The notes under the pieces are model-generated. The model did not search any database and was not told the DNA's origin. It worked only from the letters and a program-made list of their open reading frames with translations. Shown here piece by piece: positions 15,408 through 29,778 of a stretch of DNA of 31,702 bases (the first letter of the stretch is position 1; each line of letters starts with the position of its first letter). The stretch is from a virus. The stretch spans positions 1 to 31,702 of the IMG/VR virus record IMGVR_UViG_3300023174_000456; one strand, written 5' to 3'. A program made the position numbers and the translations under genes.

Positions 15408-15410
15408 AAA

Positions 15411-15989: not shown

Positions 15990-16879
15990 CAACCATTGAT
16001 ACATATCTAAAAGGTGACTATAAAAAAGCTTACGAAGTCGTTCACCCTGTTTCCCTTTACGACATTCCAATTGCTTCCGCAGACGGAAAAATCAAAGATT
16101 TATTTGCTGGTAGAAAAGGCAAAGTAACGCTTATATTCAACTGTGCTGCTGGTTGTGGAAATATCCCACAACATGGAATCATTGAGCGGTTGAATCAGCG
16201 TTACGCTAATGAAAAAGACTTTGACATCATCGCTGTGGTCGTGGACGACTTTCAGTGCCACGGATACAAAGAATTTCAAGATGGGATTGCCTCGTACTGC
16301 CAAGTCAATGGCCTTAATGTGTCAGTCGGTGAATTTGCCAAGGAGTATGCTGAGGAAAATTTTGGCACTACTTTTGAGTTTTCAGAACTCACAAACGCCA
16401 GATTTGACAAAGTTACATATGAATCAGATTTTGCCCCAAATACGGAAATAAATCAAACTCAAAATTCTCTTTGGTATTACCTAACCGAAGGCTACAAGGC
16501 AACAGTAAACAAACTAGGAATACCATATACGGGAGAAGTGGTTCCTTGGTCAAAAGGACAAGAAGAACATCTTGGTGGGGATGCCATAGCGGCAATGCCA
16601 ATAACGGGTAATTTTACAAAATTTTTGATTAATAGAACCGGAACCACAACAAAGCGATATTCCAACGGCTTCCTGCTTGGTGAGAGAGACGTAAATGGGG
16701 AAATCTATCCATGGTTGGAAGAGAAACTTCTTGAAGATGGTCGAAAAGACTGGAACCCATTTTTGGGCGTGAAAGAAGATGGTCAGCCTTGGGTAAATCC
16801 ACAGGTCAAAGAAAAGGGTGTTGACCTGTCGCTTGAACTAATCAGCAGGGATATTGACGAATTCCTTGGTCAGGCATAA
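15986..16879 (+). CDS. Glutathione-peroxidase-like protein, enlarged
   Basis: A 297-aa relative of the preceding protein. Residues 21-95 read VSLYDIPIASADGKIKDLF, KGKVTLIFNCAAGCGNIPQH, GIIERLNQRYANEKDFDIIA, with Cys57 at the peroxidatic position, and ITGNFTKFLINRTG at 206-219 gives the closing GPx motif (the usual Trp is Gly, Asn209 kept). Between them is an insertion of ~100 residues (EFAKEYAEENFGTTFEFSEL ... WYYLTEGYKATVNKLGIPYT), and the C-terminus is extended. It is longer than a normal GPx (~160-200 aa). Catalytic competence is uncertain because two tetrad positions deviate. It ends 26 bases before the first oxygenase gene. Confidence 0.7.
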   Translation: MTTIDTYLKGDYKKAYEVVHPVSLYDIPIASADGKIKDLFAGRKGKVTLIFNCAAGCGNIPQHGIIERLNQRYANEKDFDIIAVVVDDFQCHGYKEFQDGIASYCQVNGLNVSVGEFAKEYAEENFGTTFEFSELTNARFDKVTYESDFAPNTEINQTQNSLWYYLTEGYKATVNKLGIPYTGEVVPWSKGQEEHLGGDAIAAMPITGNFTKFLINRTGTTTKRYSNGFLLGERDVNGEIYPWLEEKLLEDGRKDWNPFLGVKEDGQPWVNPQVKEKGVDLSLELISRDIDEFLGQA

Positions 16880-16905: not shown

Positions 16906-17523
16906 ATGGATTCGCCTTGGAAGATAGAACCGGGATTTTTTGGAACTGGTCCAGAAAATATCCATATCATCAAGAATTTCATTGATAAAAAAGATGCGTC
17001 TACCATCTCGTTGTTTGCTCGGACCATAAAAGAATGGTCGAATGGTTCAGACACGGATGTCTTTGACGAAAATGGCGTCTGCACCTACAATGCCGCATAT
17101 TGGAATAACAGGCAGTGCACCGCAGATATTTTACAAAGAATCAATAAGGAGGTATACGACCTTATTGATTTCTATCTCGACAAGATGGCCGTGACTGCGG
17201 GTGAGATTTTTAATTGCAAACTACAGAAACGACCACCATGCATAGTTAGGTGGTTCGGCGGAATTGAACAACGTCCGCACGCCGACAAACAAATGAACGA
17301 TGGTTCACCAAACCCATTTCCCACATATGACATCAACTCCCTTTTTTATTGGAACGACGACTTTGAGGGCGGAGAGCTTTACTACCCCGAACACGACATC
17401 GTTGTAAATCCCGAGCCAGGCCTTGCCGTAATACATCCTGGAGATATCAACTACTTACACGGAGTCAAGATGATTGAGAGTGGTGAGCGCTACACGTCAC
17501 CAGCGTTCTTTACGGTTGAATAA
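16906..17523 (+). CDS. 2OG-Fe(II) oxygenase, prolyl-4-hydroxylase-like (1)
   Basis: A 205-aa protein with the double-stranded beta-helix signature. The metal ligands are H125-A-D127 (QRPHADKQMNDG) and H185 (INYLHGVKMIESGERY), and R195 should bind the 2-oxoglutarate C5 carboxylate. The central FYWNDDFEGGELYY (148-160) is the hallmark strand-turn of this P4H-like group. Enzymes with this core hydroxylate a C-H bond using O2 and 2-oxoglutarate. The substrate is unknown; Pro in the neighbouring adhesin is the obvious candidate. It is the first of twelve oxygenase genes in the window and is followed by the next after one base. Confidence 0.85.
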   Translation: MDSPWKIEPGFFGTGPENIHIIKNFIDKKDASTISLFARTIKEWSNGSDTDVFDENGVCTYNAAYWNNRQCTADILQRINKEVYDLIDFYLDKMAVTAGEIFNCKLQKRPPCIVRWFGGIEQRPHADKQMNDGSPNPFPTYDINSLFYWNDDFEGGELYYPEHDIVVNPEPGLAVIHPGDINYLHGVKMIESGERYTSPAFFTVE

Positions 17524-17524
17524 T

Positions 17525-18187
17525 ATGGGACACGAACCGCTTCAAATAAACACACCGCGAATAGGTTTGTTTGTCGACTACTTGCCAGAAGAAGAGTGGA
17601 AAGTAGTAAAAGAATATTGCGAAAACAATGAAGACAAATTTGAGTTTGTTGGTCACAATCCAGAGATTGGTTGGAAGAAAAAAACTCATTCAAGTAATCC
17701 GGGGATAACTTTTCAAACGTCTTTCCTGCCAACCAAGGATGAAATTATTTTTGGTGGCTACATGACAAACGGTGACAACTACAAAATTTCCATGCATGAG
17801 CCGGAAGATGCACAGGTTAACAAAATTCTGTCGTGGATGTTGATAAATGTTAGAGACACAATAAAGGAAACTTACGGAAATAAGACCTATTTTGAAAGTG
17901 GTCCCTGGCTGTCAATGGCTAAAAAAGGCGACAACATGGGACTGCACTGTGACGGAGTATTTTTGGACAAGGTTGGCGCAGTCACCGACTTTTCTTGCGT
18001 TTATTATGTCAACGACGACTACGAGGGCGGTGAACTATACATGCCAATCCTTGGACTATCGATAAAACCAAAAGCTAATTCTCTGCTGATTTGGTCTCAC
18101 ACTTGGCACGAAGATATGGCCCATGGCGTGAAACCGATTACCTCCGGTACTCGTTATATGTCGCAAGGCTTCTTTACAACTGTATAG
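17525..18187 (+). CDS. 2OG-Fe(II) oxygenase, prolyl-4-hydroxylase-like (2)
   Basis: I start at the ATG at 17525, just after the previous stop, rather than at 17474 inside the upstream gene. This gives 220 aa. Metal ligands are H141-C-D143 (MGLHCDGVFLD) and H200 (DMAHGVKPITSGTRY), with R210 for 2-oxoglutarate. VYYVNDDYEGGELYMPILGL (159-178) is the family hallmark. The N-terminal 120 residues are unlike those of the other paralogues except for the placement of helices. All catalytic residues are present, so it should be active. Substrate inferred only from context. Confidence 0.85.
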   Translation: MGHEPLQINTPRIGLFVDYLPEEEWKVVKEYCENNEDKFEFVGHNPEIGWKKKTHSSNPGITFQTSFLPTKDEIIFGGYMTNGDNYKISMHEPEDAQVNKILSWMLINVRDTIKETYGNKTYFESGPWLSMAKKGDNMGLHCDGVFLDKVGAVTDFSCVYYVNDDYEGGELYMPILGLSIKPKANSLLIWSHTWHEDMAHGVKPITSGTRYMSQGFFTTV

Positions 18188-18196
18188 AATAGGGCA

Positions 18197-18862
18197 ATGG
18201 AAACCAAAACACTCAGCGACCCACGCCTAGGGATTTTGCTCTACAAAAATGCACTACCAAAAGAGCTGGACATAGTCAATCGCCTAGAGGCGACTATAGG
18301 AAATAGTACGACAATGCCGTTTATGTGGTGCGAGGCGCTTGTCGGGTACTCTCAAAAAATGCCAGAGTACCGAGATTGTGTTGATTGCAAAATTGGAACA
18401 ACACACATCGACCATCTTCATCAGTACCCGCAATTTGCAGAGCTAAAAAACATATACACAGATACAGCAAATGCCATACGTGCCTGCATGAACGATTATC
18501 AAAGTCGTTACAACATAAATATGGAGTACATGGAAGCCATCAATTTCATTCGGTATAAAGAAAATCAACATTTTCAAGTACATACAGACCATGGTTTTTC
18601 TTACACATGCACAGTCTCATCTGTTGTATATTTCAACGATGATTATGAAGGTGGGGAACTGTGGTTTCCGTATCTGGACCTAACGTTTAAGCCGGCAGCT
18701 GGTGACATTGTTATGTTTCCTTCGACTTTTATTTATGCCCACGCAGCAAAACCTGTTACTAGCGGAACAAAATACTCAGGTGTAACGATGTTTGATTACA
18801 ACGACAGAAATCATGACATCAAGGGAAGCTACGATGGCGTCAAGGCCCCAGCTGTTCAATAA
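18197..18862 (+). CDS. 2OG-Fe(II) oxygenase, prolyl-4-hydroxylase-like (3), Lys at co-substrate site
   Basis: A 221-aa protein. It has H129-T-D131 (FQVHTDHGFSYT), H182 (IYAHAAKPVTSGTKYSG) and the hallmark VVYFNDDYEGGELWFPYLDL (143-162). The position that carries Arg in its neighbours is Lys192 (SGTKYS). Collagen-type prolyl 4-hydroxylases also use Lys here to bind 2-oxoglutarate, so the change is compatible with activity. An RBS-like AGGG precedes the ATG. The stop overlaps the start of the dehydrogenase gene (TAATG). Confidence 0.85.
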   Translation: METKTLSDPRLGILLYKNALPKELDIVNRLEATIGNSTTMPFMWCEALVGYSQKMPEYRDCVDCKIGTTHIDHLHQYPQFAELKNIYTDTANAIRACMNDYQSRYNINMEYMEAINFIRYKENQHFQVHTDHGFSYTCTVSSVVYFNDDYEGGELWFPYLDLTFKPAAGDIVMFPSTFIYAHAAKPVTSGTKYSGVTMFDYNDRNHDIKGSYDGVKAPAVQ

Positions 18863-19410
18863 TGGCCGTTATAGGGATTTATTCACCAGGAGCCATGGGC
18901 TCTACCCTTGCTTACTCCTGCTCTCTAATGGGGCACAAAACAATATGGGCATCAGAGGGTCGTTCTGAAAAAACCATAATTCGTGCAAAAAAATTTGGGA
19001 TAGAAGATGTTGTTTCACTTAAAAACCTTTTAGAAAAAAGTGATTTTATATTCTCGATTGCCAGCAATTTTGACGCATTTGAATTTGCTCAAGTTGTTGG
19101 ATTAAGTGGTTTTAAAGGTATTTACGTTGATTTCAATACCATGTATACGGATACCGACGGAAGTGAGCTTGAAAACATACTTGCCCAAAACAACATAAGG
19201 TATACCGAAGGGGCACTTCGTGGTTGGCCGATAAAAGAGCCAGGCGAAGTAAACACCAGCGAAAAAACAATGTACCTATCAGGCCCATATGCTGATTCGG
19301 TGAAAGAGTTGTTTGGTGGTTTTTGGAGAATAAGAACCTTGCCAAAATCAGCAAAATTATTGAACCGCGTTCTTGCAGAGGAGATGGCAATTCTTTATGG
19401 TCAAAGTTAA
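18862..19410 (+). CDS. Beta-hydroxyacid dehydrogenase-like protein, C-terminally short
   Basis: A 182-aa protein. IGIYSPGAMGSTLAYSCSLM (4-23) is the NAD(P)-binding GxxGxMG loop of the 6PGDH/HIBADH family. DFIFSIASNFDA matches strand 4 and IYVDFNTMYTDTDG (87-100) the 'DmST' loop. YTEGALRGWP corresponds to the substrate motif. K165 and N168 (PKSAKLLNRVLAEEMAI) sit where the catalytic Lys and Asn of the family are. Full family members are ~290 aa with an all-helical C-terminal domain, but this one stops just after the first helix of that domain. It could act on a small hydroxyacid or imine, or it may serve only as an NAD(P)-binding domain. It overlaps the next gene by 14 bases. Confidence 0.7.
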   Translation: MAVIGIYSPGAMGSTLAYSCSLMGHKTIWASEGRSEKTIIRAKKFGIEDVVSLKNLLEKSDFIFSIASNFDAFEFAQVVGLSGFKGIYVDFNTMYTDTDGSELENILAQNNIRYTEGALRGWPIKEPGEVNTSEKTMYLSGPYADSVKELFGGFWRIRTLPKSAKLLNRVLAEEMAILYGQS

Positions 19411-20101
19411 TTTAAAACGAACCTACAACAACCCGCCAGAGATTCGACAATCAAGAATCAATCGCGACTGGATGGATGAGACATACAAAAAACACGCATA
19501 TCAATGCCTACCGATGACTGTTGCAAACGTCTATGGATGGGAATTGGTTCTTCCACAAACAGTTGTTGCTCAATGGGACGGTGGTAATACTGTTCCATCC
19601 ATTCTTGAGGGTGAGTCATACGGCGGAAGGCAATTGGCTTACGGCGGAATTGTTGGCATGGTTTCATTTTCTACTGGTTGGATTTTTGGAACCGAGCCTG
19701 GATATGAGACATTCATCGGTGGCTCACCAAATTATGTCAGAGACGATGCTCAGGCGCTATCCGCAATCATTCCAAGCAGCTGGTGGCCAGATGAGTTTCA
19801 GATGAACTGGAAGATAAACAAAGTTGGCGAACCTGTCGTATTTGAGGCCGGCACGCCATTTATGTTTTTTTCAATCTTTCAAAGCACGGTTTTGGAAAAT
19901 GTAAATTTTACTGTTGACAACCTTTGGGACGACAAAGAACTGATGGATTCTCGTCAAAAGTACGGTGATTTAAAAATGAAAAACAACCAAGAGCAGCCCT
20001 GGACCTGGACAAAGGGTATAAAAACAGGTCTTGATGCTGATGGAAATAAAATTGGTCCTACATTTACAGGAATGCCAAAACTTCAAATCCCAGGCCAGTA
20101 A
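19397..20101 (+). CDS. DUF6065-like protein
   Basis: I start at the ATG at 19397, which has AGAGGAG 12 bases upstream inside the dehydrogenase gene. The product is 234 aa. It contains RDWMDETYKKHAYQCLPMTV, ANVYGWELVLPQTVVAQWDG, GWIFGTEPGYETFIGGSPNY and IPSSWWPDEFQMNWKINKVG followed by a 'FEAGTPFMFFSIFQ' segment. I recognise this order as that of DUF6065, a beta-rich family of unknown function. It has no obvious catalytic motif to me. Its place among oxygenases suggests a shared pathway, perhaps as a binding partner. Confidence 0.65.
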   Translation: MVKVNLKRTYNNPPEIRQSRINRDWMDETYKKHAYQCLPMTVANVYGWELVLPQTVVAQWDGGNTVPSILEGESYGGRQLAYGGIVGMVSFSTGWIFGTEPGYETFIGGSPNYVRDDAQALSAIIPSSWWPDEFQMNWKINKVGEPVVFEAGTPFMFFSIFQSTVLENVNFTVDNLWDDKELMDSRQKYGDLKMKNNQEQPWTWTKGIKTGLDADGNKIGPTFTGMPKLQIPGQ

Positions 20102-20103
20102 CA

Positions 20104-20721
20104 ATGTCAATGCTCAATTACAAAGACTTGCTAACGAGAAACGTACATGTCGTTAATGACTTTGCAACCGATGATGAGCTGTCAAAAATCCTTGATAAAT
20201 GCAATGAGTTTTTGGACTGGGATAACACTTGGCAAGAACATATTGACGGACAGAGATACACCGAAAGACCAGACTGCCAGGAACGCGCTGCTGTTTCTTC
20301 TAGGGCGCTCTCACTTGTGTCCGCGACAGTTGGTAGGAGATTGTGTTTTCTGTATGAGCCATATCTGAGAAAATACCCACCGGGCTCGTATCTTAAGATG
20401 CATGCAGACTCAGAGGGTTATTACGGGAGCAGTCCAGAGCCGCTTAAAAACTACAACCCAGATAATCAAATGTCTGAAGTTCTCAATGAATACTCATCAA
20501 TCCTGTACCTCAACGACGACTACCAGGGCGGAGAGTTATATTTCGAAGAGCTCGACCTGCTAATTAAGCCAAAAGTTAATCAGCTAGTATTCTTCCCAAG
20601 CGGTTCTGAATTTAGGCATGAAGTCAAGCCCGTGCTCAGTGGAGATAGGTACACTCTTGCCTCTTTTTATACGACTGATAAGATTGTTGGCCTGCACGAG
20701 AGGATACGAGAACTTATATGA
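20104..20721 (+). CDS. 2OG-Fe(II) oxygenase, prolyl-4-hydroxylase-like (4)
   Basis: A 205-aa protein. YPPGSYLKMHADSEGYYG gives H100-A-D102. ILYLNDDYQGGELYFEELDL (133-152) is the hallmark, and SEFRHEVKPVLSGDRYTLAS gives H172 and R182. It is the closest in the window to the typical bacterial/phage P4H shape, including 'RKYPPGSYLKMHAD' where the family has 'RY..G..f..H.D'. All ligands are intact. The stop is ATGA-coupled to a small gene. Confidence 0.9.
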   Translation: MSMLNYKDLLTRNVHVVNDFATDDELSKILDKCNEFLDWDNTWQEHIDGQRYTERPDCQERAAVSSRALSLVSATVGRRLCFLYEPYLRKYPPGSYLKMHADSEGYYGSSPEPLKNYNPDNQMSEVLNEYSSILYLNDDYQGGELYFEELDLLIKPKVNQLVFFPSGSEFRHEVKPVLSGDRYTLASFYTTDKIVGLHERIRELI

Positions 20722-20933
20722 AACTTGGAAAATATGACTCTTTAATGGCAAAGAATCGCGCTGCACGGTTCTTGACTGCGTCAATCGGGGAAATGAGTCA
20801 GTTGATGGCAAGCGAGAACATGGCTCCTGTCTATTCTGGGGAAAATCCACACGAAGAAGGAACCATAGAGCACAATGCTTTTATGCTCATATCAAATGAG
20901 TACTCCGCATTGGAGGCACTGAAAGATGGATGA
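20718..20933 (+). CDS. Small unknown protein (71 aa)
   Basis: A soluble, mixed-charge 71-aa protein (KLGKYDSLMAKNRAARFLTA ... NAFMLISNEYSALEALKDG) with no motif I recognise; it looks mostly helical. It overlaps both neighbours by a few bases (ATGA with the upstream oxygenase), so it is part of the operon. I do not assign a function. Confidence 0.6.
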   Translation: MKLGKYDSLMAKNRAARFLTASIGEMSQLMASENMAPVYSGENPHEEGTIEHNAFMLISNEYSALEALKDG

Positions 20934-21117
20934 GTCTCAGGATTTCAAAATGAGCACCAGAAAAGGTGAAGCGATAACAGACACTGAAGAGTGGGATAAC
21001 GAGATTATTGAGTGGGACCCAAGCACTGGTGTTTACTATGTTGCCGGGAAGCCAGTGTCAATGTGTCAAGGTGTAGCAATGTTCGATGTTAAAGAGGAAA
21101 AAGATGAGCAAGTATGA
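20926..21117 (+). CDS. Small acidic unknown protein (63 aa)
   Basis: A 63-aa acidic protein (net charge clearly negative) with TEEWDNEIIEWDPSTGVYYV as its central strand-rich segment and a charged tail (FDVKEEKDEQV). It overlaps the gene before it by 8 bases and the next by 14. No domain is recognised. Its operon position and overlaps argue that it is expressed. Confidence 0.55.
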   Translation: MDESQDFKMSTRKGEAITDTEEWDNEIIEWDPSTGVYYVAGKPVSMCQGVAMFDVKEEKDEQV

Positions 21118-21385
21118 CCCAATTGCTGATTTAGAGTATCGCTCTGAACAGCTTGCAGCGTACCTATTCATACTCGGATTTGACGAATCACGATTTAATG
21201 AGGTCACAATAGACGACTGCATCAACGCAATTCGAGACAGATACCGCTATGACCATGACACCGAAATTAATTCAGCTGTTAAAGACTACATAAAAAGACA
21301 AAACATCACACTGACAAGAAATGTCCGCCGTGCCTGGTTTGATGTCCAGGTGGCATTGCATGAGGTTCAAAATGGAACAAAATAA
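21104..21385 (+). CDS. Small unknown protein (93 aa)
   Basis: I start at the ATG at 21104 because AGAGGAAAA lies directly upstream. An in-frame ATG at 21086 would give six extra residues. The product (SKYDPIADLEYRSEQLAAYL ... DDCINAIRDRYRYDHDTEIN ... VKDYIKRQNITLTRNVRRAW) is helical and charged, with no recognised domain. It overlaps the following methyltransferase-like gene by 14 bases. Confidence 0.6.
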   Translation: MSKYDPIADLEYRSEQLAAYLFILGFDESRFNEVTIDDCINAIRDRYRYDHDTEINSAVKDYIKRQNITLTRNVRRAWFDVQVALHEVQNGTK

Positions 21386-22106
21386 GAGGTACGAACCGGA
21401 AGTATCTTTTGACTTCAGCTCACTTCAGTTTGACTGGGAGCAATACGCAGACCAGTGCAACCGCGAAGATGGTGGACATTCTGTCGCTATAGCTGAATAT
21501 CTTTTTAACGAGGTAGGCATTGATAGAAGGAATATTGCCACTGGCGGAGCAAGCGACTACGAGTTTGTGGTTCACTACCCAAGACCGAACCTATCAAGTG
21601 CGTATGGTCAAGCTCAGTGGATGTCAATCCTTTTGATTCTCGGCATCATGGACATCTCTAAGAAGAAGAATGTATTGGCAGTTTCTGGCGGTCTAGATAG
21701 ATTCAGATTGAAGGTGTTCAAGTCGCTCCACGGCGCAAACATCACATTTCTGAATAACAAAAAACTTAGTTTGTACGAGAAATTCCAGGACCCTATTGAC
21801 CACTATGACGTTGTCACTATGCAGGATTTTGAGAAACATGTAAACAAAAAATACGACATGATGCTTGCTTGGTCCCAGGACATGGAGAACCCGCTAATTC
21901 CCATTAGCGCCTTTGTTGACAGGCTTGAAGATAATGGTGTTTTAATAATCCAGAACACCTCTGACAGCATGTTTTTATACAACAACCACACAAAGGCAAC
22001 TCCAATCTGGGGCTACCACGAAGCGCTAAAAAGGATGGGTGGTTGCAGCGTCTACCACATACCTGTATTTTATGGAATAACTCTTGTTGTTAAGAGTCCA
22101 CAATGA
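21372..22106 (+). CDS. Methyltransferase-like Rossmann protein (tentative)
   Basis: I use the ATG at 21372 (244 aa) rather than one 51 bases upstream in the previous gene. The C-terminal half has the alternating strands of a class I methyltransferase: KKNVLAVSGGLDRFRLKVF (strand and helix), ANITFLNNKK, YDVVTMQDF, then YDMMLAWSQDMENPLIPISA and LEDNGVLIIQNTSDSMF, the usual 'yD.i......l..l...L..gGvlii.n' run. A clear motif I GxGxG is missing, so SAM binding is not certain. It is ATGA-coupled to an oxygenase gene. A role in methylating a hydroxylated or glycosylated product is speculation. Confidence 0.45.
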   Translation: MEQNKRYEPEVSFDFSSLQFDWEQYADQCNREDGGHSVAIAEYLFNEVGIDRRNIATGGASDYEFVVHYPRPNLSSAYGQAQWMSILLILGIMDISKKKNVLAVSGGLDRFRLKVFKSLHGANITFLNNKKLSLYEKFQDPIDHYDVVTMQDFEKHVNKKYDMMLAWSQDMENPLIPISAFVDRLEDNGVLIIQNTSDSMFLYNNHTKATPIWGYHEALKRMGGCSVYHIPVFYGITLVVKSPQ

Positions 22107-22777
22107 TTGTAAAAGATAACGCCATTGGCGATTCTTTGTACAAAGAGGTACTGGCTGATGAACTGTTCTTTCCAGAATCAATGGGTTCTGACGAAAGATT
22201 AGCTACAGAATTAAATTCATACCACTATGAGAAGTCAAGCTGTTTTGCCCCATACATGTTTTGGGATGGATGGTGGGCCTCCCCGGCCAATACGTTAAGA
22301 AAGAAGGTCGTCCAGTCAATTTGGGAAGAAAACCTGCCCTGCGATACAAGCGAAATACTTGGAATTGAGTACTGGACCAGAACCTATCTTCCTGGTCAAT
22401 ACCTGGACGTGCACGTTGACGAAGACACTTTTCTTTATCAAGATTCAAAGACGTTCAGTGGTCCGTTGACTGGCTCGATATTCTATGGTGTCGACAATTA
22501 TGAAGGTGGTTTTGTTGAAATATACAACAAAGCGATTTTGAAAGATGGGGAAAAACTGGCCATTGAGGCTGAAAATATTAACGCCCTATTAGTTCCAGTT
22601 GAAGAGCGCGAAAGAATTGCTTACAAAGGCAACCGAGTAATCATCTTTGATACTGGCCATGTTGTTCATGGAACTACGCCTGCAAAAAGCGGAATTAGAC
22701 AAGTCATGGTAACAAATGTGTGGCATCGCAACAATCCCCCAACAGCTTTAAGATTGGGAGAATTTTTTTATGAGTGA
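22103..22777 (+). CDS. 2OG-Fe(II) oxygenase, prolyl-4-hydroxylase-like (5), divergent
   Basis: A 224-aa protein. LPGQYLDVHVDEDTFLYQD gives H104-V-D106, and DTGHVVHGTTPAKSGIRQVM gives H189 (or H186) and R199. The usual hallmark is replaced by IFYGVDNYEGGFVEIYNK (126-143), keeping only NYEGG. A ~25-residue insertion (LKDGEKLAIEAENINALLVP) follows. The ligand set is complete, so it should bind iron and 2-oxoglutarate, but the altered sheet suggests a different substrate from its neighbours. It overlaps the next gene by 8 bases. Confidence 0.75.
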   Translation: MIVKDNAIGDSLYKEVLADELFFPESMGSDERLATELNSYHYEKSSCFAPYMFWDGWWASPANTLRKKVVQSIWEENLPCDTSEILGIEYWTRTYLPGQYLDVHVDEDTFLYQDSKTFSGPLTGSIFYGVDNYEGGFVEIYNKAILKDGEKLAIEAENINALLVPVEERERIAYKGNRVIIFDTGHVVHGTTPAKSGIRQVMVTNVWHRNNPPTALRLGEFFYE

Positions 22778-23672
22778 TGTCAAAAAAATAAACCTTTTAT
22801 CAATTGATGTATTTAAAACCAAAATCCACGACATCAATAACCAGCGACTGTTGCAAGAGATTTTTAATTCAACTAATGATATTGATGATTCATTTATCAA
22901 AAATAAATATCACACCTATTACGAAGACAAAAGATATCCGTTTGGTTCTGTTGAGTCGGAAAAACTAATCAACAAATTAACAGAAGAAGTTTCTGGTGCT
23001 TTAAACAAAGAAATGGTGCTTAGTAGTATTTGGACACTGACGCTTGGTTACGGGCAGTCCGTGTCCGCTCACTCTCATAAGTCGAACATCCAACTTCGCC
23101 CAGAAGAGTACTTTTCAATTGCTTATTACCCAAGCGCCCCCAAAGGGAGCGCAGACTTGATATTTATGGTTAATGCAGGAAACACTATTGAGAAGTCTGT
23201 TGAACTAACACCGGAAACTGGTGACCTGATTATTTTTAACTCTTATTTAATGCATATGACGAATAGGCATGACAACAAGGAAGAGCCTCGAGTTGTTATA
23301 AGCGCCAATTTTTCTCCTAAATACCCTGATTTAACTCCAACTCAAGATTGGAGCGCGTACGCAAGAAACCCAGAAGATAGTGAAATCATCTACGATAAAC
23401 GTTACTCGTTGACAATACGAACTCCTTTTGGCAAAGAAGATGCAACACTCGGTATAAAAGGTGATATTGCAGAGATATTCAATCCAACAGGAAAGTATTT
23501 TATAGAAAAATTTACTGAAACAAAAGATTCATTTAAAGCTGAGTTTTCTGTTGATGTACCCATGGTTACAACTGTGGGCATTCAATTGTCGTTTATTGAA
23601 AACAGAGCTATTGAAGGTTCAATTTTTATTGGTGAATTTGCCGAATACTTGGTGACTGGGGTGGTGCTGTGA
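22770..23672 (+). CDS. 2OG-Fe(II) oxygenase of the 2OG-FeII_Oxy_5 type with an added C-terminal domain
   Basis: A 300-aa protein. Residues ~85-182 fit the 2OG-FeII_Oxy_5 (PF13759) pattern: YGQSVSAHSHKSNIQLRPEE (H101-S-H103, as in the family's H-x-H), FSIAYYPSAPKGSADLIF, TGDLIIFNSYLMHMTNRHDN (H162) and EEPRVVISANFSPKYP (R174). The remaining ~115 residues form a separate beta-rich domain (IIYDKRYSLTIRTPFGKEDA ... FKAEFSVDVPMVTTVGIQLS ... SIFIGEFAEYLVTGVVL). This may bind the substrate. It is not a member of the P4H-like set that makes up the rest of the cluster. The family assignment is by pattern, not search. Confidence 0.65.
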   Translation: MSDVKKINLLSIDVFKTKIHDINNQRLLQEIFNSTNDIDDSFIKNKYHTYYEDKRYPFGSVESEKLINKLTEEVSGALNKEMVLSSIWTLTLGYGQSVSAHSHKSNIQLRPEEYFSIAYYPSAPKGSADLIFMVNAGNTIEKSVELTPETGDLIIFNSYLMHMTNRHDNKEEPRVVISANFSPKYPDLTPTQDWSAYARNPEDSEIIYDKRYSLTIRTPFGKEDATLGIKGDIAEIFNPTGKYFIEKFTETKDSFKAEFSVDVPMVTTVGIQLSFIENRAIEGSIFIGEFAEYLVTGVVL

Positions 23673-24280
23673 GCGAGTCTATTTACAACATTCCAATAAA
23701 TTCAATTGACGGAGATAAAGATATTCTCTCAGGGCTTGATGGAATGGTTACACTGTTTTTTCCTTTTGCGTCAAAGGCCGGGTACGAGCCAAAATGCAGC
23801 CGTGTTTGGTCTTATGCTAGAACCTCCAGAAAGCTATGGGAGATGCAGAAACTACACGAAATGTTTGAAAACTTTTCTGTTGTTGGTGTTCCATCAAATC
23901 AGTTCTGGAACATGGAGCCTCTTGAAAATGAACAGATATCAAAATTCATAAAAGAAACATACCCATTTGTCAAGTTCCCAATTACTGAAAAAGTCGTAAT
24001 AAACGGAGATGACGAGCATGCAATCTGTTCGCACATGAAGGGCTACACTAAACGACTTGTTGATGACACGAAAGCCGGCAACAGTTTTGCTGCCTCACAA
24101 GGCCAAAATCTCGCTGGAGGAGCTGTTCACAAAATACCTGCATATTACGAAAAATTTGTAGTCAGCAAAGAAGGACGGCAGGTGTTTAGGTTTGGGTTTG
24201 CTACCAAACCGTTGGCAGACAGGGCTGAAACCACGGACATGGATATGACGGTCATTCAGGCAGTACAATCATTACTATGA
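23669..24280 (+). CDS. GPx-like protein lacking the peroxidatic cysteine
   Basis: A 203-aa protein with a GTG start overlapping the previous stop. SIYNIPINSIDGDKDILSGL, DGMVTLFFPFASKAGYEPK and FSVVGVPSNQFWNMEPLENE follow the GPx fold (family: 'VN.ASKCGYT', 'G.P.NQFg.QEP'). The peroxidatic Cys is Ala37 and the closing WNF is replaced by AYYEKFVV (158-165), so two or three of the four tetrad residues are lost; Gln78 is retained. Peroxidase activity is unlikely. A nearby Cys43 might play another role. It may be a substrate- or partner-binding form of the two GPx-like proteins upstream. It is ATGA-coupled to the next oxygenase. Confidence 0.75.
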   Translation: MSESIYNIPINSIDGDKDILSGLDGMVTLFFPFASKAGYEPKCSRVWSYARTSRKLWEMQKLHEMFENFSVVGVPSNQFWNMEPLENEQISKFIKETYPFVKFPITEKVVINGDDEHAICSHMKGYTKRLVDDTKAGNSFAASQGQNLAGGAVHKIPAYYEKFVVSKEGRQVFRFGFATKPLADRAETTDMDMTVIQAVQSLL

Positions 24281-25137
24281 GTAACTTCAACTTCAAGCCA
24301 GAGCACCTAGGTGGTGGAACGGTAATCTTCAGGAATGCAATCAATGTTCCACAAAAGGAGACATTCGATTATCTGGAAGAGATGAGAGAAGAAGCATTTA
24401 ATAACTCCTACACAATCGTCAATGATGAAAACGGCAATCCACTACATGCGGTAAATAGGGGTGGGTTTATCTACGACCTTGAGGACATGGACAGGGCTCC
24501 AATCCGAATAGGGAATTTAGACATTCCATTTTTTCAAGAATGCGAAAAAGCAATATACGAAGCACTTCTGCATTATGTAGAAATGTTCCCGGCTGTTCTA
24601 CAGTGCCTTTGGTGGAAGAGCCCTGGCCATGTTTTGCGTTACGCAAAGGGCGGCGGGCTTGGATTTCACGCTGACAACGATGTGAACTACCGCTACGGGA
24701 GAGAGCCAAAAGAACAGCATGCAACTCGCAATGTCCTATCTGCCCTTGTCTACTTCAACGACTGCACCGATGACCAATCGGTTGAGTATTCCTTTTCTGG
24801 TGGGCATATGACAATCCCATATTTTGACATAGATATTGCGCCGTCAACTGGTGCAATTGTCCTGATGCCCGCTAACTATATAGGCGCTCATCAAATCCAT
24901 GAAGTAACTAGGGGTGTTAGGTATTCATACTTGACCTGGTTTGCTCAGGGCTCCGAAGACCCAGAGCGTGGGTGCTCTCCAGCTCATCCAGAAGAAACAA
25001 TGTTTCAAAACAATGGACAATGGTGGCTTCCATCAATTCTCAAGGATTACGAAAACTATATAATCAAAAAGTATGGCTCTTTATTAAATGCTCCACAAGA
25101 AAAAGTGGATTATCTAAGCAGAGCCAACGACCACTAA
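24277..25137 (+). CDS. 2OG-Fe(II) oxygenase, LGGG/WWK-type P4H-like (6)
   Basis: A 286-aa protein, member of a subfamily of four here that share an N-terminal HLGGGTVIFRNAI motif and a WWKSPGHVLRYAKGG segment (112-126) just before the metal site. Ligands: H131-A-D133 (GLGFHADNDVNYR), H205 (ANYIGAHQIHEVTRGVRYSY) and R215. LVYFNDC ... FSGGHMTIPYFDIDIAPSTG is a variant of the hallmark with a short insertion. The C-terminal ~60 residues (NNGQWWLPSILKDYENYIIK) are shared in part with the paralogues (MPSLRSDFADYL). Its stop overlaps the stop of a convergent minus-strand gene by 3-4 bases. Confidence 0.85.
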   Translation: MSNFNFKPEHLGGGTVIFRNAINVPQKETFDYLEEMREEAFNNSYTIVNDENGNPLHAVNRGGFIYDLEDMDRAPIRIGNLDIPFFQECEKAIYEALLHYVEMFPAVLQCLWWKSPGHVLRYAKGGGLGFHADNDVNYRYGREPKEQHATRNVLSALVYFNDCTDDQSVEYSFSGGHMTIPYFDIDIAPSTGAIVLMPANYIGAHQIHEVTRGVRYSYLTWFAQGSEDPERGCSPAHPEETMFQNNGQWWLPSILKDYENYIIKKYGSLLNAPQEKVDYLSRANDH

Positions 25138-25457
25138 ATCTTTTTTGTAAACATCTTTTCGGTTACAAATAGATGTTTTGCGAGAGTGCTTGACGAATGA
25201 ATTATCCCAAGCGGATTTGGGACATTAAACTCGTTGAGAAGGTCTGCCATCTTTCCGTTTGTAATGTCTTCCCAAAAGGCCATCATCGCTTCTGCTCCAT
25301 TGCGGCCAGATATGTAGTATTTTTCTTCAATTTGCCCCGGGAGAACATTATCCGCCCAATGGTTGTAGCCATCTTTTTCCACCATGTTCGGTAGCTTGGC
25401 AAACTCTTGGACCATTACCTCTGTCCATCTATCAAATGCTTTATTCTTTTCGTTCAT
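25134..25457 (-). CDS. Small unknown protein (107 aa)
   Basis: The minus-strand frame is open to 25616, but the upstream part overlaps the divergent oxygenase gene, so I place the start at the ATG at 25457 (NEKNKAFDRWTEVMVQEFAK). The protein is mixed-charge and helical (NHWADNVLPGQIEEKYYISG, RNGAEAMMAFWEDITNGKMA, KHLFVTEKMFTKKI) with no domain that I recognise. It is a single gene on the opposite strand between two oxygenases, convergent with one and separated by only 18 bases from the start of the other, so the two starts share a tiny divergent gap. Confidence 0.6.
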   Translation of the reverse strand: MNEKNKAFDRWTEVMVQEFAKLPNMVEKDGYNHWADNVLPGQIEEKYYISGRNGAEAMMAFWEDITNGKMADLLNEFNVPNPLGIIHSSSTLAKHLFVTEKMFTKKI

Positions 25458-25475
25458 TGGGCTATCATACACGGT

Positions 25476-26348
25476 ATGAACCAAAAACCAAAGTTCAACG
25501 ATGTAGAGCCAAAACACCTTGGAGGTGGAGTAGTTGTTTTTAGTAAAGCTATTTCGTTTGATAACGAATGGGCGTGCTCGTTTGCTGAAAAACAAGTCTC
25601 TGAAGAGCGCTCCCAAATGTACGAAGAGGCAATAGACCCTGAGACAGGAGGTCCTGCATTTAAGAATAAAAGCGGGTACTACTTTGATGCCGCTGGAGTG
25701 AATCTAATGCCTCGTCGTGGTTCACAAATACACCAGAATCCAGATGAGGATATAAGTGATTTTCTGGAGTTTGTTGAGAAATCAAAAGATGCATATCTAC
25801 TTAAATACTTCTATCTTTTTCCTCTGGCATACAAGAATGTTTGGTGGAAAGTAAAAGGTCACTTAGTTTCTTACTCTGTGGAAAATGGTGGTAGGTTTCT
25901 TGGGCCGCACTCCGACACGAGTGCCGACTATGCATATGGATTCCCCCATCCACACGACCAGCTGGCCACCAGGAACACAGTCTCATGCATTGTGTACTTG
26001 AACGATAATTTTGACGGTGGTCACCATTACTTCAATTATCTCGACATTGACTACAAACCTTCTGCCGGAGACATCTTGATGTTCCCATCAAATTATATGG
26101 CAGCGCATGAGGTCAAGGAGACAACTTGTGGAAGTCGGTACACATATCTTGGTTGGTACTCACATGGAACTCCAAATAAAGAAGTCAATGAACACATCGT
26201 TGACCCAATTGAATCTCCAGAACTAGCAAAAACAGCAACGAATGTTTATATGCCATCGCTTCGCTCCGATTTTGCTGACTACCTGAATAAAGTTGACCCA
26301 GGTAAGACATCATTTGGACATAGTCTTGTTGAAAGTATGCACTCATGA
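25476..26348 (+). CDS. 2OG-Fe(II) oxygenase, LGGG/WWK-type P4H-like (7)
   Basis: I start at the ATG at 25476 (290 aa). The frame is open further upstream, but the paralogues all begin just before the HLGGG motif, here EPKHLGGGVVVFSKAI. WWKVKGHLVSYSVENGG (123-139) precedes H145-S-D147 (FLGPHSDTSADYAY). IVYLNDNFDGGHHYFNYLDI (172-191) is the hallmark. AAHEVKETTCGSRYTYLGWY gives H211 and R221. All catalytic residues are in place. ATGA-coupled to the next oxygenase. Confidence 0.85.
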   Translation: MNQKPKFNDVEPKHLGGGVVVFSKAISFDNEWACSFAEKQVSEERSQMYEEAIDPETGGPAFKNKSGYYFDAAGVNLMPRRGSQIHQNPDEDISDFLEFVEKSKDAYLLKYFYLFPLAYKNVWWKVKGHLVSYSVENGGRFLGPHSDTSADYAYGFPHPHDQLATRNTVSCIVYLNDNFDGGHHYFNYLDIDYKPSAGDILMFPSNYMAAHEVKETTCGSRYTYLGWYSHGTPNKEVNEHIVDPIESPELAKTATNVYMPSLRSDFADYLNKVDPGKTSFGHSLVESMHS

Positions 26349-27079
26349 TTGTCAAGCATCTTGGCAATGGGATAATGCTTTTTGAAGATGCATTAGACAC
26401 ATCCCTCTTTGAGTCATATCTTGAAAGAATTTTTGCAGAAAATTCAAGCGCTACAAACGGAGTCAATATTGACTCATCTCAAAATGACGGTGGGTACACC
26501 GTACAGGAATCTCATATTTCAGAATTACCAATTAGGTTTCACGGACTCTCCGGTGGTTCTGAATTCACAGCAGACGTTACAAAATCAATTGATGATGCGT
26601 TGTACAAGTGCTTAGTTGAGTACTGTCGAGTTTTCCCTTTAGCAATTGACTGTATAAAGTGGAGAACTAGTGGCCAGATTGCATCTTACTCGGTAGGGCA
26701 GAACATTGGTCCACATAGCGACTGCGCGCTTCCGTATGATGCCGATGGCAATGTTTTAAACTCATTCCCTCTTCACAACACTCTTACTGGCTCAATGGTT
26801 TTAAGTGAAAATCACGAGGGTGGAGCAATAAGATTTAGACCTTGGGGGATAACTTCAAATCCAAAAATTGGCTCAGTTTTGATTTACCCATCATCTTTCA
26901 TGGGTTGTCATGAAGTGGAGCAGGTAACTTCTGGTGTTAGAAATGTTTATCTGCAGTGGTTCTGTCAAGGAAAACCAGAGATGCAAATTTTAGAAAATAA
27001 CAAATTGGACAATCTTGCAACCGACGCAAAAAACTGCGGACAAGGCTATGTCCATGTTGGAATTATTCAACAGAATTAA
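26345..27079 (+). CDS. 2OG-Fe(II) oxygenase, LGGG/WWK-type P4H-like (8)
   Basis: A 244-aa member of the same subfamily, shorter and more divergent. HLGNGIMLFEDAL replaces the LGGG motif, IKWRTSGQIASYSVGQN replaces WWK..GH, and SMVLSENHEGGAIRFRPWGI (150-169) replaces the NDDYEGGEL hallmark. Ligands remain: H124-S-D126 (IGPHSDCALPYD), H189 (MGCHEVEQVTSGVRNVYLQW) and R199. It is probably active, but its altered hallmark suggests altered substrate recognition. It converges with the next gene, the two stops overlapping by a few bases. Confidence 0.8.
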   Translation: MIVKHLGNGIMLFEDALDTSLFESYLERIFAENSSATNGVNIDSSQNDGGYTVQESHISELPIRFHGLSGGSEFTADVTKSIDDALYKCLVEYCRVFPLAIDCIKWRTSGQIASYSVGQNIGPHSDCALPYDADGNVLNSFPLHNTLTGSMVLSENHEGGAIRFRPWGITSNPKIGSVLIYPSSFMGCHEVEQVTSGVRNVYLQWFCQGKPEMQILENNKLDNLATDAKNCGQGYVHVGIIQQN

Positions 27080-28146
27080 TACAAACTGTTGTGCTCTTTG
27101 CCGCGTTGCTCGTTATCGTATACGACCTGAGAATGTGAGTAGGCTTTCTTTAAACCGTTTTCACCCTCAAGCGTTCTGTTTTGATAAACCGGATTTGCCT
27201 TAAACATTCCGTTTGCGTCTTTTGCTGAATCACCATTTCCCATAAATTCGGTTTGTTTGCAGTAATGCTTGTAGTCGTCATAGAGTGCATCTATGAAGTG
27301 TGGCCTACACCATCCATCGTTGTCTTCGGGTTCGGAAATGTTGATTCCCACCTCGTCATGGCTGCTTCCTTGACTAAAGAATTCTAGGTACCCGTATCGG
27401 ACACCTTTCCTTACTGGCTCAACACCGTGAGTGGCCATAAAGTTTGCTGGGAAAATAACCACATCACCAGTCTTTGGAACATTCTTTATTCCTAGGTATG
27501 GGAATACAAGCTCTCCCCCGGTGTAGTTTTCTCCATCTAGCTCTGATTCGTCCTCTACGCAGTCATTGAGATAAAGCATTACTGCTAGCACTTGGCGCAT
27601 TTGTATTTGTCCGCGCGGCACAAAGCGCTCGCCATTTGTTGCTCTATAGTTTGAGTCGTTGTCGTTGTGTATTCCAAGAAAAGCACCTTCGTCGTACCTC
27701 ATGGCGTGACCCTTTGTGCGCCACCAGATTGTTCCTAAAACCATCGGAAATTCATCAACATACCTAAGAAGACACTTATAAATCATGTCTTCCCAGTACC
27801 TAAAGACCTCAATCATCTCTGGTTCAGTTTTAGAGTTGACAACTTCAAGAAGCCTAACTGGGACCATCTGGACTTGTTCTGGCGAGAACTTATTGCCGTC
27901 TTCGTTGATGGCGTAAAGGTTTCCCTCTTCATCATGGTCCCATGTCCATCTTTGTTCATGAGCTGACTTTGAGTGCTTGTCAATATATGGGAGAAGTGTG
28001 CTCCTATCAATTTTTACAACACCTGGAAACCTAAGCACTCCTCCACCAAGGTTTTCGTATTGCATGTTGAATATCTCGAAGATAGCGTCATCGTTACGGA
28101 CATCTGGGGTTGTCCCATAAAACCTGTTGTCATTAACCTTTTCCAT
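27076..28146 (-). CDS. 2OG-Fe(II) oxygenase, LGGG/WWK-type P4H-like (9), longest
   Basis: The ATG at 28146 has GGGAG five bases before it, so I prefer it to an upstream in-frame TTG (28161). The product is 356 aa. Residues 30-45 (YENLGGGVLRFPGVV) and 141-154 (WWRTKGHAMRYDEG) place it in the LGGG/WWK subfamily. Ligands are H160-N-D162 (FLGIHNDNDSNYRA) and H240 (ANFMATHGVEPVRKGVRYGY) with R250. LYLNDCVEDESELDGENYTG followed by GELVFPYLGIKN is the hallmark with a 14-residue insertion, also present in shorter form in the 286-aa paralogue. It has an extra N-terminal ~28 residues and a ~90-residue C-terminal extension. The start is 3 bases after the stop of the next oxygenase upstream. Confidence 0.85.
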   Translation of the reverse strand: MEKVNDNRFYGTTPDVRNDDAIFEIFNMQYENLGGGVLRFPGVVKIDRSTLLPYIDKHSKSAHEQRWTWDHDEEGNLYAINEDGNKFSPEQVQMVPVRLLEVVNSKTEPEMIEVFRYWEDMIYKCLLRYVDEFPMVLGTIWWRTKGHAMRYDEGAFLGIHNDNDSNYRATNGERFVPRGQIQMRQVLAVMLYLNDCVEDESELDGENYTGGELVFPYLGIKNVPKTGDVVIFPANFMATHGVEPVRKGVRYGYLEFFSQGSSHDEVGINISEPEDNDGWCRPHFIDALYDDYKHYCKQTEFMGNGDSAKDANGMFKANPVYQNRTLEGENGLKKAYSHSQVVYDNEQRGKEHNSLY

Positions 28147-28148
28147 AC

Positions 28149-28736
28149 CTACTCCCGCCAAAATTGAATTAAACTAAACCTAGAACCAGCCGTAACTTCT
28201 GTGACTCCATGGTAGTTTAAATCAGCGTTAAATATCAGTGCTTGCCCAGCTTTGAGTTGTATGTCAATATCAATGTTTGGCTGCTCTCTTGTCCCCGTAA
28301 GATAAAACTGTGTGTGTCCGCCCTCGTAGTCGTCATTCAGGCAGATAACAGATGAGTGAGTTATTCTGCCCATCCCGTAATCTCCATCCCCTCCATCGGT
28401 ATGGATATCATGGGATTGGCCTTTGACTTGACTCTTAATAGTGCAACTTTGGTTTGGGAATATTGGAGCCTGCAGACTAACCCCTGTTTTTAAGAAATAT
28501 TCTTTTGTTAATCTTTCGTACATTAGCCGAAAAATTGTTACAAGTCGGATGCCGCCAACGTAAGACAAATCGTTTATTGCGTAGGTTGTGAATTGATTCT
28601 TATTTGATGAAGAGTCAGGACTCTTTGATTCAAGTAATTTGACCGCGTTGGTTATACTAGTTGAAAGTTTTTTTCCAATCAACTGCCCAAAATAAATATC
28701 GTTACCTAGGTTTTCAAGATGATTCAAGTCTGTCAA
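28149..28736 (-). CDS. 2OG-Fe(II) oxygenase, P4H-like (10), non-ATG start
   Basis: A 195-aa protein. SHDIHTDGGDGDYGMGR gives H112-T-D114, VICLNDDYEGGHTQFYL (130-146) is the hallmark, and YHGVTEVTAGSRFSLIQFW gives H176 and R186. The only suitable start is TTG at 28736, with CGAGAAAA just upstream. The first internal ATG (residue 73) would remove the N-terminal third. The start is therefore less certain than the rest. It resembles cyanophage and aquatic-phage short P4H forms. The gene lies between two other minus-strand oxygenase genes. Confidence 0.8.
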   Translation of the reverse strand: MTDLNHLENLGNDIYFGQLIGKKLSTSITNAVKLLESKSPDSSSNKNQFTTYAINDLSYVGGIRLVTIFRLMYERLTKEYFLKTGVSLQAPIFPNQSCTIKSQVKGQSHDIHTDGGDGDYGMGRITHSSVICLNDDYEGGHTQFYLTGTREQPNIDIDIQLKAGQALIFNADLNYHGVTEVTAGSRFSLIQFWRE

Positions 28737-28779
28737 TTTTCTCGATAATGTCGTCAGGTTGGGTTCGACCGATGTTGGG

Positions 28780-29535
28780 TTAACACCTTTTGTCTGCTGG
28801 AAGTTCTTCTTGCCCTACTGCTTCTAGGTATGACTTCATTTTTGATAGTTGTGCTTCGTACATGGAGTGTTCTTTTTTGGTAGACCAAGTTGACGAAATC
28901 GTATAACGAGTCTTTCCGTGAATTTTTGTCACACCATGCAAATGTGAATGGTTTGAGTTATGAGCAAAAATTGCACCAGTTTTTGGGGTGTGCTCCCTGT
29001 CGTAATACGGGTAGAAGGTGTGTCCTCCCTCATAATCGTCGTTTAAATACACCACGCAACCAGCAACCCTACTGAGTTCGGGTACTTCATCTACGTGAAC
29101 CATTTGAAAACTGTTTGGCGGCCACTTAACTACTCCTATTTGGTCGGCGTAGCATTCAACATTGAAAGACTTCGAAACAAATTCTTTCATTTTTTGATGT
29201 ACACTTAGCGCTAATTTTATAGTTTCTATGCTTTGGTGTTTATGTTTTGGGATATTGGTAAGCAGTCCAATATTTCTTTCGCTCCAAAAAGGGTAAGTAA
29301 TATTTACCGGCCAGTTGCTTTCAGTTTCAGCCAGCCACACCAAGTACTCGCACTCATCTGCGCTAAGAAGTTCTTCTTTATAAAAAATTTCTGCTGGTTC
29401 TAGTTTTTCAACTATTTTATATGGAAATCGTGTTTGGTCTAAATCTTTGAATTTTTTGGGCTTGTTGGTTTGTTCGTCTACAAATACGCGGTGTTGTATG
29501 TTCTCGGGTAGCGATGTATTAAGAAAATCAAACAT
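28780..29535 (-). CDS. 2OG-Fe(II) oxygenase, P4H-like (11)
   Basis: A 251-aa protein. PPNSFQMVHVDEVPELSRVA gives H147-V-D149. CVVYLNDDYEGGHTFYPYYD (160-179) is the hallmark, and NHSHLHGVTKIHGKTRYTIS gives H200 and R210. The N-terminal ~125 residues (KIVEKLEPAEIFYKEELLSA, DECEYLVWLAETESNWPVNI) follow the helix/strand order of P4H catalytic domains before the metal site. All ligands are intact. It is the last oxygenase and, reading leftwards, the first of the minus-strand set, with 15 bases between it and the small Cys-rich gene upstream. Confidence 0.85.
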   Translation of the reverse strand: MFDFLNTSLPENIQHRVFVDEQTNKPKKFKDLDQTRFPYKIVEKLEPAEIFYKEELLSADECEYLVWLAETESNWPVNITYPFWSERNIGLLTNIPKHKHQSIETIKLALSVHQKMKEFVSKSFNVECYADQIGVVKWPPNSFQMVHVDEVPELSRVAGCVVYLNDDYEGGHTFYPYYDREHTPKTGAIFAHNSNHSHLHGVTKIHGKTRYTISSTWSTKKEHSMYEAQLSKMKSYLEAVGQEELPADKRC

Positions 29536-29550
29536 ACAACTGTCTTGTGT

Positions 29551-29778
29551 TTACCACTTACCCAGTGGGCAGGCCGCTGCGGGAAGTTTTACTTTAAGTT
29601 TCATAAAGCAACCACATTCCTTGCATTGTTTTGTGAGTTTGAGAAGACTGGGGCACGCTTCGCAAATCTCGTAGCGTTTTGATGAGACCTCTTCGGGCAC
29701 ATGTTCTATGTTTGGATTTACTACATCCCAAGGTCTTGTCTCGCCAATTTTTTTCTTCCACTCTTGATATGCAGACAT
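29551..29778 (-). CDS. Small Cys-rich zinc-ribbon-like phage protein
   Basis: A 75-aa protein. The C-terminal half carries C39-x2-C42 (YEICEACPSL), C52-x2-C55-x-C57 (KQCKECGCFMK) and C70 (ACPLGKW), a four-Cys zinc-ribbon-like arrangement. I know very similar small proteins, with the same 'ICE.CP.L.K...QCK.CGCFM..K..L....CP..KW' ending, from cyanophages and other aquatic phages, without a known role. The N-terminal part (YQEWKKKIGETRPWDVVNPN) is less typical. It lies between the oxygenases and a GNAT gene. Confidence 0.75.
   Translation of the reverse strand: MSAYQEWKKKIGETRPWDVVNPNIEHVPEEVSSKRYEICEACPSLLKLTKQCKECGCFMKLKVKLPAAACPLGKW

Follow-up and report, generated by a model that had tools for sequence, protein, structure and literature searches.

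Why would a phage keep twelve oxygenase genes beside fibre genes that encode aromatic, proline-rich repeats? This question is raised by the IMG/VR record IMGVR_UViG_3300023174_000456, the whole 31,702 bases of which are called the window below. In the window, genes for 2-oxoglutarate (2OG)- and Fe(II)-dependent oxygenases occupy the region 16906–29535, flanked by genes for FN3-domain proteins containing Pro-x-Phe-Pro (PxFP) motifs. A sequence-only reading of this DNA suggested that the phage may carry a system for hydroxylating proline-rich adhesins of its own. The linkage between tract and enzyme genes reported here supports that suggestion, and the best explanation of the locus is probably that the phage encodes prolyl hydroxylases for the aromatic-polyproline tracts of its fibres; the chemistry, the target residue and the adhesin function are the parts that we infer.

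All twelve oxygenase open reading frames (ORFs) listed in the sequence-only reading were found intact at their positions, eleven of the PF13640 type, i.e., prolyl 4-hydroxylase (P4H)-like, and one of the PF13759 type. Nine of the eleven P4H-like ORFs exceeded the PF13640 cut-off of 27 bits, and a search of the genome likewise returned nine places above it. The other two fell just below (16906, 22.6 bits, E = 2e-4; 22103, 23.8 bits, E = 9e-5), and the 22770 protein was above the PF13759 cut-off (7.7e-7). The iron ligands are complete, as had been claimed, with HxD...H in all eleven P4H-like proteins and HxH, expected for its family, in the 22770 protein; all eleven also carry a basic residue, K or R, for 2OG binding about 10 residues past the distal His. 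The closest relative that we found is G113 (79 kb), whose tail sheath marks it as a myovirus; its gene order is that of the window. Eleven of the twelve oxygenases, all except 28783, could be paired with G113 proteins at 65–93% identity, and the ratio of nonsynonymous to synonymous substitutions (dN/dS) was 0.02–0.07 wherever it was estimable, two pairs being saturated at synonymous sites. The oxygenases are under strong purifying selection, and because of these dN/dS values the cluster cannot be attributed to chance.

Rather than forming a single array, the region consists of two convergent operons, with nine oxygenases on the plus strand and three on the minus strand, each beginning with a fibre gene followed by an FN3-PxFP gene. 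In the plus operon, the fibre gene 13590 is followed by FN3-PxFP 14373, two glutathione-peroxidase-like genes, and the nine oxygenases together with DUF6065, dehydrogenase-like and other genes. The minus operon runs from the fibre-like gene 31037 through FN3 30321, a GNAT gene and a DUF6171-like gene to three P4Hs. The claim that two FN3 proteins with PxFP repeats flank the cluster holds for the first, with its 65-residue tail, but not for the second, which has only a 12-residue stub, PPYFPPFFPPSF, and then a Cys/Gly/Pro-rich tail. The tail of the first comprises 16 twelve-nucleotide units with 15 different sequences, and the tract is therefore maintained as protein sequence, not as a recently arisen DNA repeat. 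Its unit is PP(F/Y)F, and it contains no Gly and hence no Gly-X-Y repeat.

In IMG/VR, at least 120 stretches match a nucleotide pattern written for three PxFP units. Across 84,980 cellular genomes the same pattern matched nine times; about five of these matches were judged from their reading frames to be due to chance and four look real, being phage-like contigs in metagenome-assembled genomes. A P4H lies nearby in three of these four, and in the fourth the tract lies where the fetched stretch ends. The tract is abundant in IMG/VR and nearly absent from the cellular genomes. PF13640 was detected in 48 of 50 PxFP contigs, mostly in 5–11 copies, versus 2 of 50 random-pattern contigs, with one copy each. 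Similarly, 90 of 120 PxFP loci contained a P4H, compared with 0 of 120 control loci, whose combined length was about the same. The nearest P4H was on the strand of the tract in 75 cases and on the opposite strand in 7 (of 82), with a median gap of 456 bases. It lay closely downstream of the tract, the gap being <150 bases in 31 of 86 cases and <1 kb in 68 of 86.

Two P4H subfamilies were the commonest: c0 (18197 in the window; 112 members in 74 loci) and c1 (16906 in the window; 79 members in 73 loci). The recurring gene order is PxFP – P4H(c0) – DUF6065b – P4H(c0) – DUF6065a – P4H(c1). DUF6065a and DUF6065b are homologous to each other (hhalign, 97%), and one or both were present in 69 of the 90 P4H-bearing PxFP loci. 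The tracts were divided into a period-4 type, e.g., PPYFPPFFPPFFPP, and a mixed-period type, e.g., PFFPFFPP or PFFPFFPPFF. Among loci with both c0 and c1, those with a mixed-period tract had two c0 copies in 36 of 38 cases and DUF6065b in 37 of 38, whereas those with a strict period-4 tract, the kind found in the window, had a single c0 in 27 of 27 and no DUF6065b in 22 of 27. The tract type thus predicts the enzyme complement, as expected from the earlier proposal of different paralogues for different sites. Matched sets of enzyme and substrate would produce such a correlation, and two cassette lineages with separate histories could do so too. Further non-haem iron enzymes were also seen in the same cassettes, namely an Asp/Asn beta-hydroxylase, a fatty-acid desaturase and a TauD dioxygenase (L490, on contig G130, 10557–12130; L021, 3009–3863).

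The AlphaFold2 model of c0 (pLDDT, the predicted local distance difference test score, 92.5) has a P4H fold, although a fold does not prove activity. Prolyl hydroxylases made up 49 of the best 50 Foldseek rows for the model, and the matches included algal P4H with and without (Ser-Pro)5, PHD2-HIF, the chlorella-virus enzyme vCPH, Pseudomonas putida P4H with EF-Tu, and collagen P4H-II. With VIA-align, the best Z was 20.3 over 193 residues, and the prolyl hydroxylases matched at Z 18–20, several of them holding a peptide substrate; the VIA-align lists for c0 and DUF6065 served as second looks, and families absent from them are not thereby excluded. The best match of the c0 sequence profile was Bacillus anthracis P4H (2e-6), followed by LH3. 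For the c1 profile it was prolyl 3-hydroxylase 1 (P3H1; 8k0e, 5e-10), followed by PiuC (2e-7), which denotes similarity only. The iron triad and the 2OG ligand are invariant or nearly so across both families: H182...K192 is nearly invariant in c0, the Lys standing 10 residues past the distal His, which is the spacing of collagen P4H, and R195, the Arg that serves as 2OG ligand in c1, is invariant. The DUF6065a model resembled dUTPases (Z 10.6 over 116 residues; Foldseek 6e-5), which suggests a dUTPase-like fold; no dUTPase sequence match for DUF6065 was found in the PDB, and no paper on DUF6065 in the open-access literature searched.

Relatives among isolated phages are distant. Neither megablast of the cluster DNA nor tblastn of the FN3-PxFP protein gave a match in phage isolates. 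With tblastn among 50,697 phage records, the best c0 matches were at about 24–30% identity and the c1 matches were partial, none covering 80% of the query; no c0 or c1 orthologues were found in the isolates searched.

The linkage was also approached from the enzyme side, using loci of at least 12 kb selected by similarity to c1 or c0. By ORF search, PxFP was present in 28 of 32 c1-selected loci, and the remaining four carry PxFP frames without a start codon. Among c0-selected loci, 30 of 40 had PxFP, and most of the misses had a startless PxFP frame or a variant (SPPAFF, PPPFPPPF, FCPFFP) right before the first P4H. Variant tracts directly upstream of the first P4H included SPPAFFSPPSFF, APPPFPPPFPPPF and FCPFFPNFCP. 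A further set of loci was drawn with an unspecific P4H motif. Where one or two P4Hs were present, a strict tract occurred in 0 of 61 loci within the fetched stretch, the rest of these contigs not being searched. In 28 loci with at least five P4Hs, a strict tract was present within the locus in 9 and a variant tract in 2; six more have repeated tract matches elsewhere on the contig and one further locus a single match, and the remaining tract-free loci are contigs of <14 kb, except for one of 23 kb. Because single P4H genes occur without PxFP, the tie to the tract applies to the c0/c1 cassette alone and not to P4Hs in general.

About 28 distinct PASTA-like PxFP proteins lack an in-frame start codon (34 startless frames were listed; the loci include L001, L066, L105, L267, L328, L022, L074 and L336). 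Nearly all are preceded by an ORF of 20–47 codons from which a +1 shift is needed to enter the frame, and CGGAA occurs near the opening in 23 of the 34 frames (GCA CGG AAC, GGT CGG AAA, AAA CGG AAC). Judging from these sequences, the genes may use a programmed +1 frameshift at the CGG codon. The PxFP genes of the window need no frameshift.

To compare contigs within one phage group, we used the terminase relatives of G113 at ≥82% identity, i.e., 24 contigs of 25–172 kb. T4 gp23, tried as a clade marker, gave 0 matches in 26 records and none in the controls and was uninformative; the terminase was used instead. PxFP was present in 3 of the 24 contigs, which had 9, 12 and 12 PF13640 matches. Of the 21 without strict PxFP, 16 had no PF13640 match, three had one or two, and two (G122 and G124) had five. 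The latter two contain a version of the minus operon alone: a fibre gene, an FN3 gene with SFPPAPSFPP, a GNAT gene, a small protein and five P4Hs, with a homologue of the 13590 protein preceding the FN3 gene. G122 and G124 share one cassette, as do G130 and G131, and these are not independent events. From this pattern it follows that the cassette has been gained or lost as a unit within the phage group. In none of the three comparisons (random contigs, enzyme side and clade) were the oxygenases equally frequent without PxFP, the outcome that the sequence-only reading had named as a refutation of its proposal. One clade member without PxFP, L493 (G126), has a single P4H a few kilobases from a collagen-like Gly-X-Y protein, GPQGPQGETGATG (14450–15745, 8152–8730). 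The nearest isolates by terminase (Gordonia and other phages, and methanogen phages) are only about 40% identical, and therefore no host is assigned.

A different account is that the cassette is a cargo island, in which the oxygenases act on host proteins such as EF-Tu, on surface glycans or on small molecules, and lie beside PxFP because both share a hypervariable tail-fibre and host-range island. The nearest structures include bacterial P4Hs with EF-Tu as their substrate (4iw3, 5v7y), the accessory paralogues differ greatly among loci (55 clusters), and TauD, Asp/Asn hydroxylase and desaturase genes also collect there. However, the same-strand closeness, the fixed gene order and the c0 copy number predicted by the tract grammar are more specific than hitch-hiking, and P4Hs are rare in control contigs; we regard this account as unlikely. 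Slightly less likely still is that the same fibre protein is modified by another chemistry, on Phe, Tyr, His or FN3 Asn/Asp residues. This would fit the tract Phe, which is as invariant as Pro, the Asp/Asn beta-hydroxylase gene in one cassette, and the general catalytic versatility of 2OG oxygenases, but the nearest folds and profiles of c0 and c1 are overwhelmingly peptidyl-prolyl hydroxylases, and in variant tracts P is retained while the x of PxF varies. A metabolic or repair role, through altered 2OG signalling or AlkB-like repair, has been proposed for cyanophage oxygenases (2OG/NtcA signalling, with up to five copies per genome, PMC3037559; DNA repair, PMC2984593) but is very improbable here, as c0 and c1 lie in tail-fibre operons and not beside recA and the DnaB helicase as in S-SCSM2R, and signalling gives no reason for a tie to the PxFP tract type.

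Several observations also weigh against prolyl hydroxylation of the tracts. Two PxFP contigs (19.0 and 36.8 kb), with the tract within a long FN3-like protein, had no PF13640 match; P4H genes on their own are often found in viruses that lack PxFP; the tract-free 23-kb contig carries a five-P4H array, which is not of the c0/c1 type; and the contigs are not phylogenetically independent. Furthermore, c0 and c1 are only distantly related to characterised enzymes, substrate prediction for 2OG oxygenases is unreliable, and since Phe as well as Pro hardly varies in the tract, conservation alone does not single out Pro.

Under the prolyl-hydroxylation reading, the tract is the presumptive substrate and Pro the putative target. 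The two fibre-associated FN3 proteins with [PP(F/Y)F]n tracts would each be expressed together, from one operon, with a set of prolyl hydroxylases that depend on non-haem iron and 2OG; across loci, the substrates would be fibre-associated FN3 or PASTA-like proteins. Late in infection, in the host cytoplasm, the core enzymes c0 (P4H-like) and c1 (nearer to prolyl 3-hydroxylase) would hydroxylate the tract prolines, the paralogues dividing Pro contexts or positions among themselves and the accessory oxygenases taking other sites of the same fibres. The predicted effect is that hydroxyproline stiffens a polyproline-II-like spike, changes its surface chemistry or creates attachment points; the product would be a fibre tip that is stiffer or of altered chemistry. 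The DUF6065 proteins are constant partners, perhaps a scaffold or carrier, with no dUTPase activity implied, and the glutathione-peroxidase-like proteins may handle peroxide or redox and may protect against uncoupled turnover. A role in the virion is supported because the cassette adjoins minor-tail and fibre genes. More tentatively, and with somewhat less than even confidence, we propose a phage code in which the tract grammar is matched to dedicated prolyl 4- and 3-hydroxylases and DUF6065 scaffolds, yielding rigid spikes with dense hydroxylation and perhaps further decoration.

The features of the two operons are collected in Table 1. The translation starts of two P4Hs were taken as 17525 and 25476, which are not the mechanical ORF starts. 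Relatives of the glutathione-peroxidase-like proteins, three of which lie among the oxygenases of the window, were present in 19 loci. A 160-amino-acid ORF on the minus strand (25134–25616) runs against the direction of the operon, has no Pfam match and has no counterpart in the G113 gene list. At the left end of the window, three glycosyltransferase-like genes lie on the minus strand (386–2757), one with a clear PF00535 match. A glycosyltransferase was considered as a fixed part of the cassette, and no recognisable cluster occurred among the commonest conserved neighbours; therefore, glycosylation of hydroxyproline is not argued. A candidate sulfotransferase spotted by eye in L041 had no Pfam match.

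Table 1. Features of the two convergent operons, in window coordinates.
Feature	Position	Strand	Basis
Minor tail / fibre protein heading the plus operon	13590..14369	+	PHROG minor tail protein 1.8e-23; G113 counterpart 84% identical
Fibre protein with FN3 domain and PxFP tract at the C terminus, predicted substrate 1	14373..15407	+	fn3 7e-11; G113 homologue 83% identical over aligned part
[PP(F/Y)F]n tract, 65 residues, period 4	15210..15404	+	Sequence of FN3 protein
Glutathione-peroxidase-like protein 1	15411..15989	+	PF00255 3e-11
Glutathione-peroxidase-like protein 2	15986..16879	+	PF00255 8e-5, under cut-off
P4H-like oxygenase, core subfamily c1	16906..17523	+	Profile best match P3H1; cluster of 79 members in 73 loci
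P4H-like oxygenase	17525..18187	+	PF13640 7e-10; G113 91% identical, dN/dS 0.065
P4H-like oxygenase, core subfamily c0	18197..18862	+	PF13640 3e-12; model pLDDT 92.5, prolyl-hydroxylase fold
NAD-binding dehydrogenase-like protein	18862..19410	+	PF02826 2e-4, under cut-off
DUF6065a protein, conserved cassette partner, predicted dUTPase-like fold	19382..20101	+	PF19541 1e-45; family in 66 loci
P4H-like oxygenase	20104..20721	+	PF13640 8e-13
Protein without named function	21384..22106	+	No Pfam or PHROG match; G113 92% identical, dN/dS 0.018
P4H-like oxygenase, cluster c7	22103..22777	+	PF13640 9e-5, under cut-off; relatives in 12 other PxFP loci
2OG-FeII_Oxy_5 oxygenase	22770..23672	+	PF13759 7.7e-7; phrog_81 2OG-Fe(II) oxygenase 5e-21
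Glutathione-peroxidase-like protein 3	23669..24280	+	PF00255 9e-14
P4H-like oxygenase	24277..25137	+	PF13640 1.5e-9
P4H-like oxygenase	25476..26348	+	PF13640 3e-13
P4H-like oxygenase	26345..27079	+	PF13640 1e-7
P4H-like oxygenase, minus operon	27076..28161	-	PF13640 4e-11
P4H-like oxygenase, minus operon	28149..28736	-	PF13640 4e-10
P4H-like oxygenase, minus operon	28780..29535	-	PF13640 3e-6
DUF6171-like small protein	29551..29778	-	PF19668 1.4e-5, just under cut-off
GNAT acetyltransferase	29796..30260	-	PF00583 4e-6; 86% identical homologue at same place in G122/G124
FN3 protein, predicted substrate 2	30321..31040	-	fn3 5e-10; PPYFPPFFPPSF stub at 30705-30740
Fibre-like protein heading the minus operon, resembles 13590 protein	31037..31600	-	ORF; no Pfam match

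The cassette is widespread in phages. Prolyl hydroxylases acting on proline-rich repeats are known in viruses and hosts, but not in the form of this multi-enzyme system of phages. In the open-access literature searched, we found no account of phage PxFP tracts or of an association between them and prolyl hydroxylases, and one may exist elsewhere. Among the papers listed for the motif PPFFPP, the titles mainly concern antimicrobial peptides (cathelicidin PR-39), and none is a phage study of such tracts. In Baltic viruses, P4HA is among the most abundant auxiliary genes and its use has been called cryptic (PMC9301287). The phage code, if true, would help to explain why prolyl hydroxylases are common among virus-encoded auxiliary genes; what is put forward here is one particular candidate substrate, a core set of enzymes and a rule relating tract type to c0 copy number.

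Marine cyanophage 2OG-Fe(II) oxygenases (phrog_61) match at the family level, but their identity to c0 is <30% in the best rows, they lie beside replication genes in S-SCSM2R, and PxFP was absent from the three P4H-carrying isolates and one single-cell virus searched whole. The bacterial P4Hs (P. putida P4H-EF-Tu, 4iw3; B. anthracis, 3itq/5hv0) share the bacterial cytoplasm with the proposed system, and the B. anthracis enzyme is the best profile match of c0. However, their substrate is EF-Tu, and we know of no linkage of these enzymes to fibre genes. Viral proline-rich repeat proteins have reportedly been proposed as substrates of vCPH, and to our knowledge only one such enzyme occurs in Paramecium bursaria chlorella virus 1. 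This prolyl 4-hydroxylase (Eriksson et al., 1999, as cited in PMC9301287; PDB 5c5t) is a virus-encoded P4H fold that matches c0 structurally (Z 17.9), with weak sequence similarity (E = 0.009), but it belongs to an alga virus, whereas the genes described here form phage operons in which as many as 12 oxygenases occur with aromatic PxFP tracts and DUF6065 partners. Algal and plant type I P4Hs (Cr-P4H, PDB 2jig/3gze) gave the top c0 fold matches (Z 17.9–19.9) and act on polyproline-II-like Pro-rich repeats, namely those of hydroxyproline-rich cell-wall glycoproteins, but they function in the eukaryotic secretory pathway, are about 22% identical in the structural alignment and modify SP/PPPP rather than PP(F/Y)F. 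In collagen modification (C-P4H, prolyl 3-hydroxylase 1 and LH3), several oxygenases act on one repeat protein, and all three enzymes appear among the matches: P3H1 for the c1 profile, LH3 for the c0 profile and C-P4H-II for the c0 fold. Unlike collagen, the PxFP tract has no Gly-X-Y repeat, and the phage system has neither an endoplasmic reticulum nor a protein disulfide isomerase subunit. If the proposal holds, the cassette would be the phage equivalent of the modification of collagen and extensin and would connect phage fibres with oxygen, iron and 2OG, and its compact prolyl hydroxylases, functioning in the bacterial cytoplasm, would be useful for hydroxylated protein materials.

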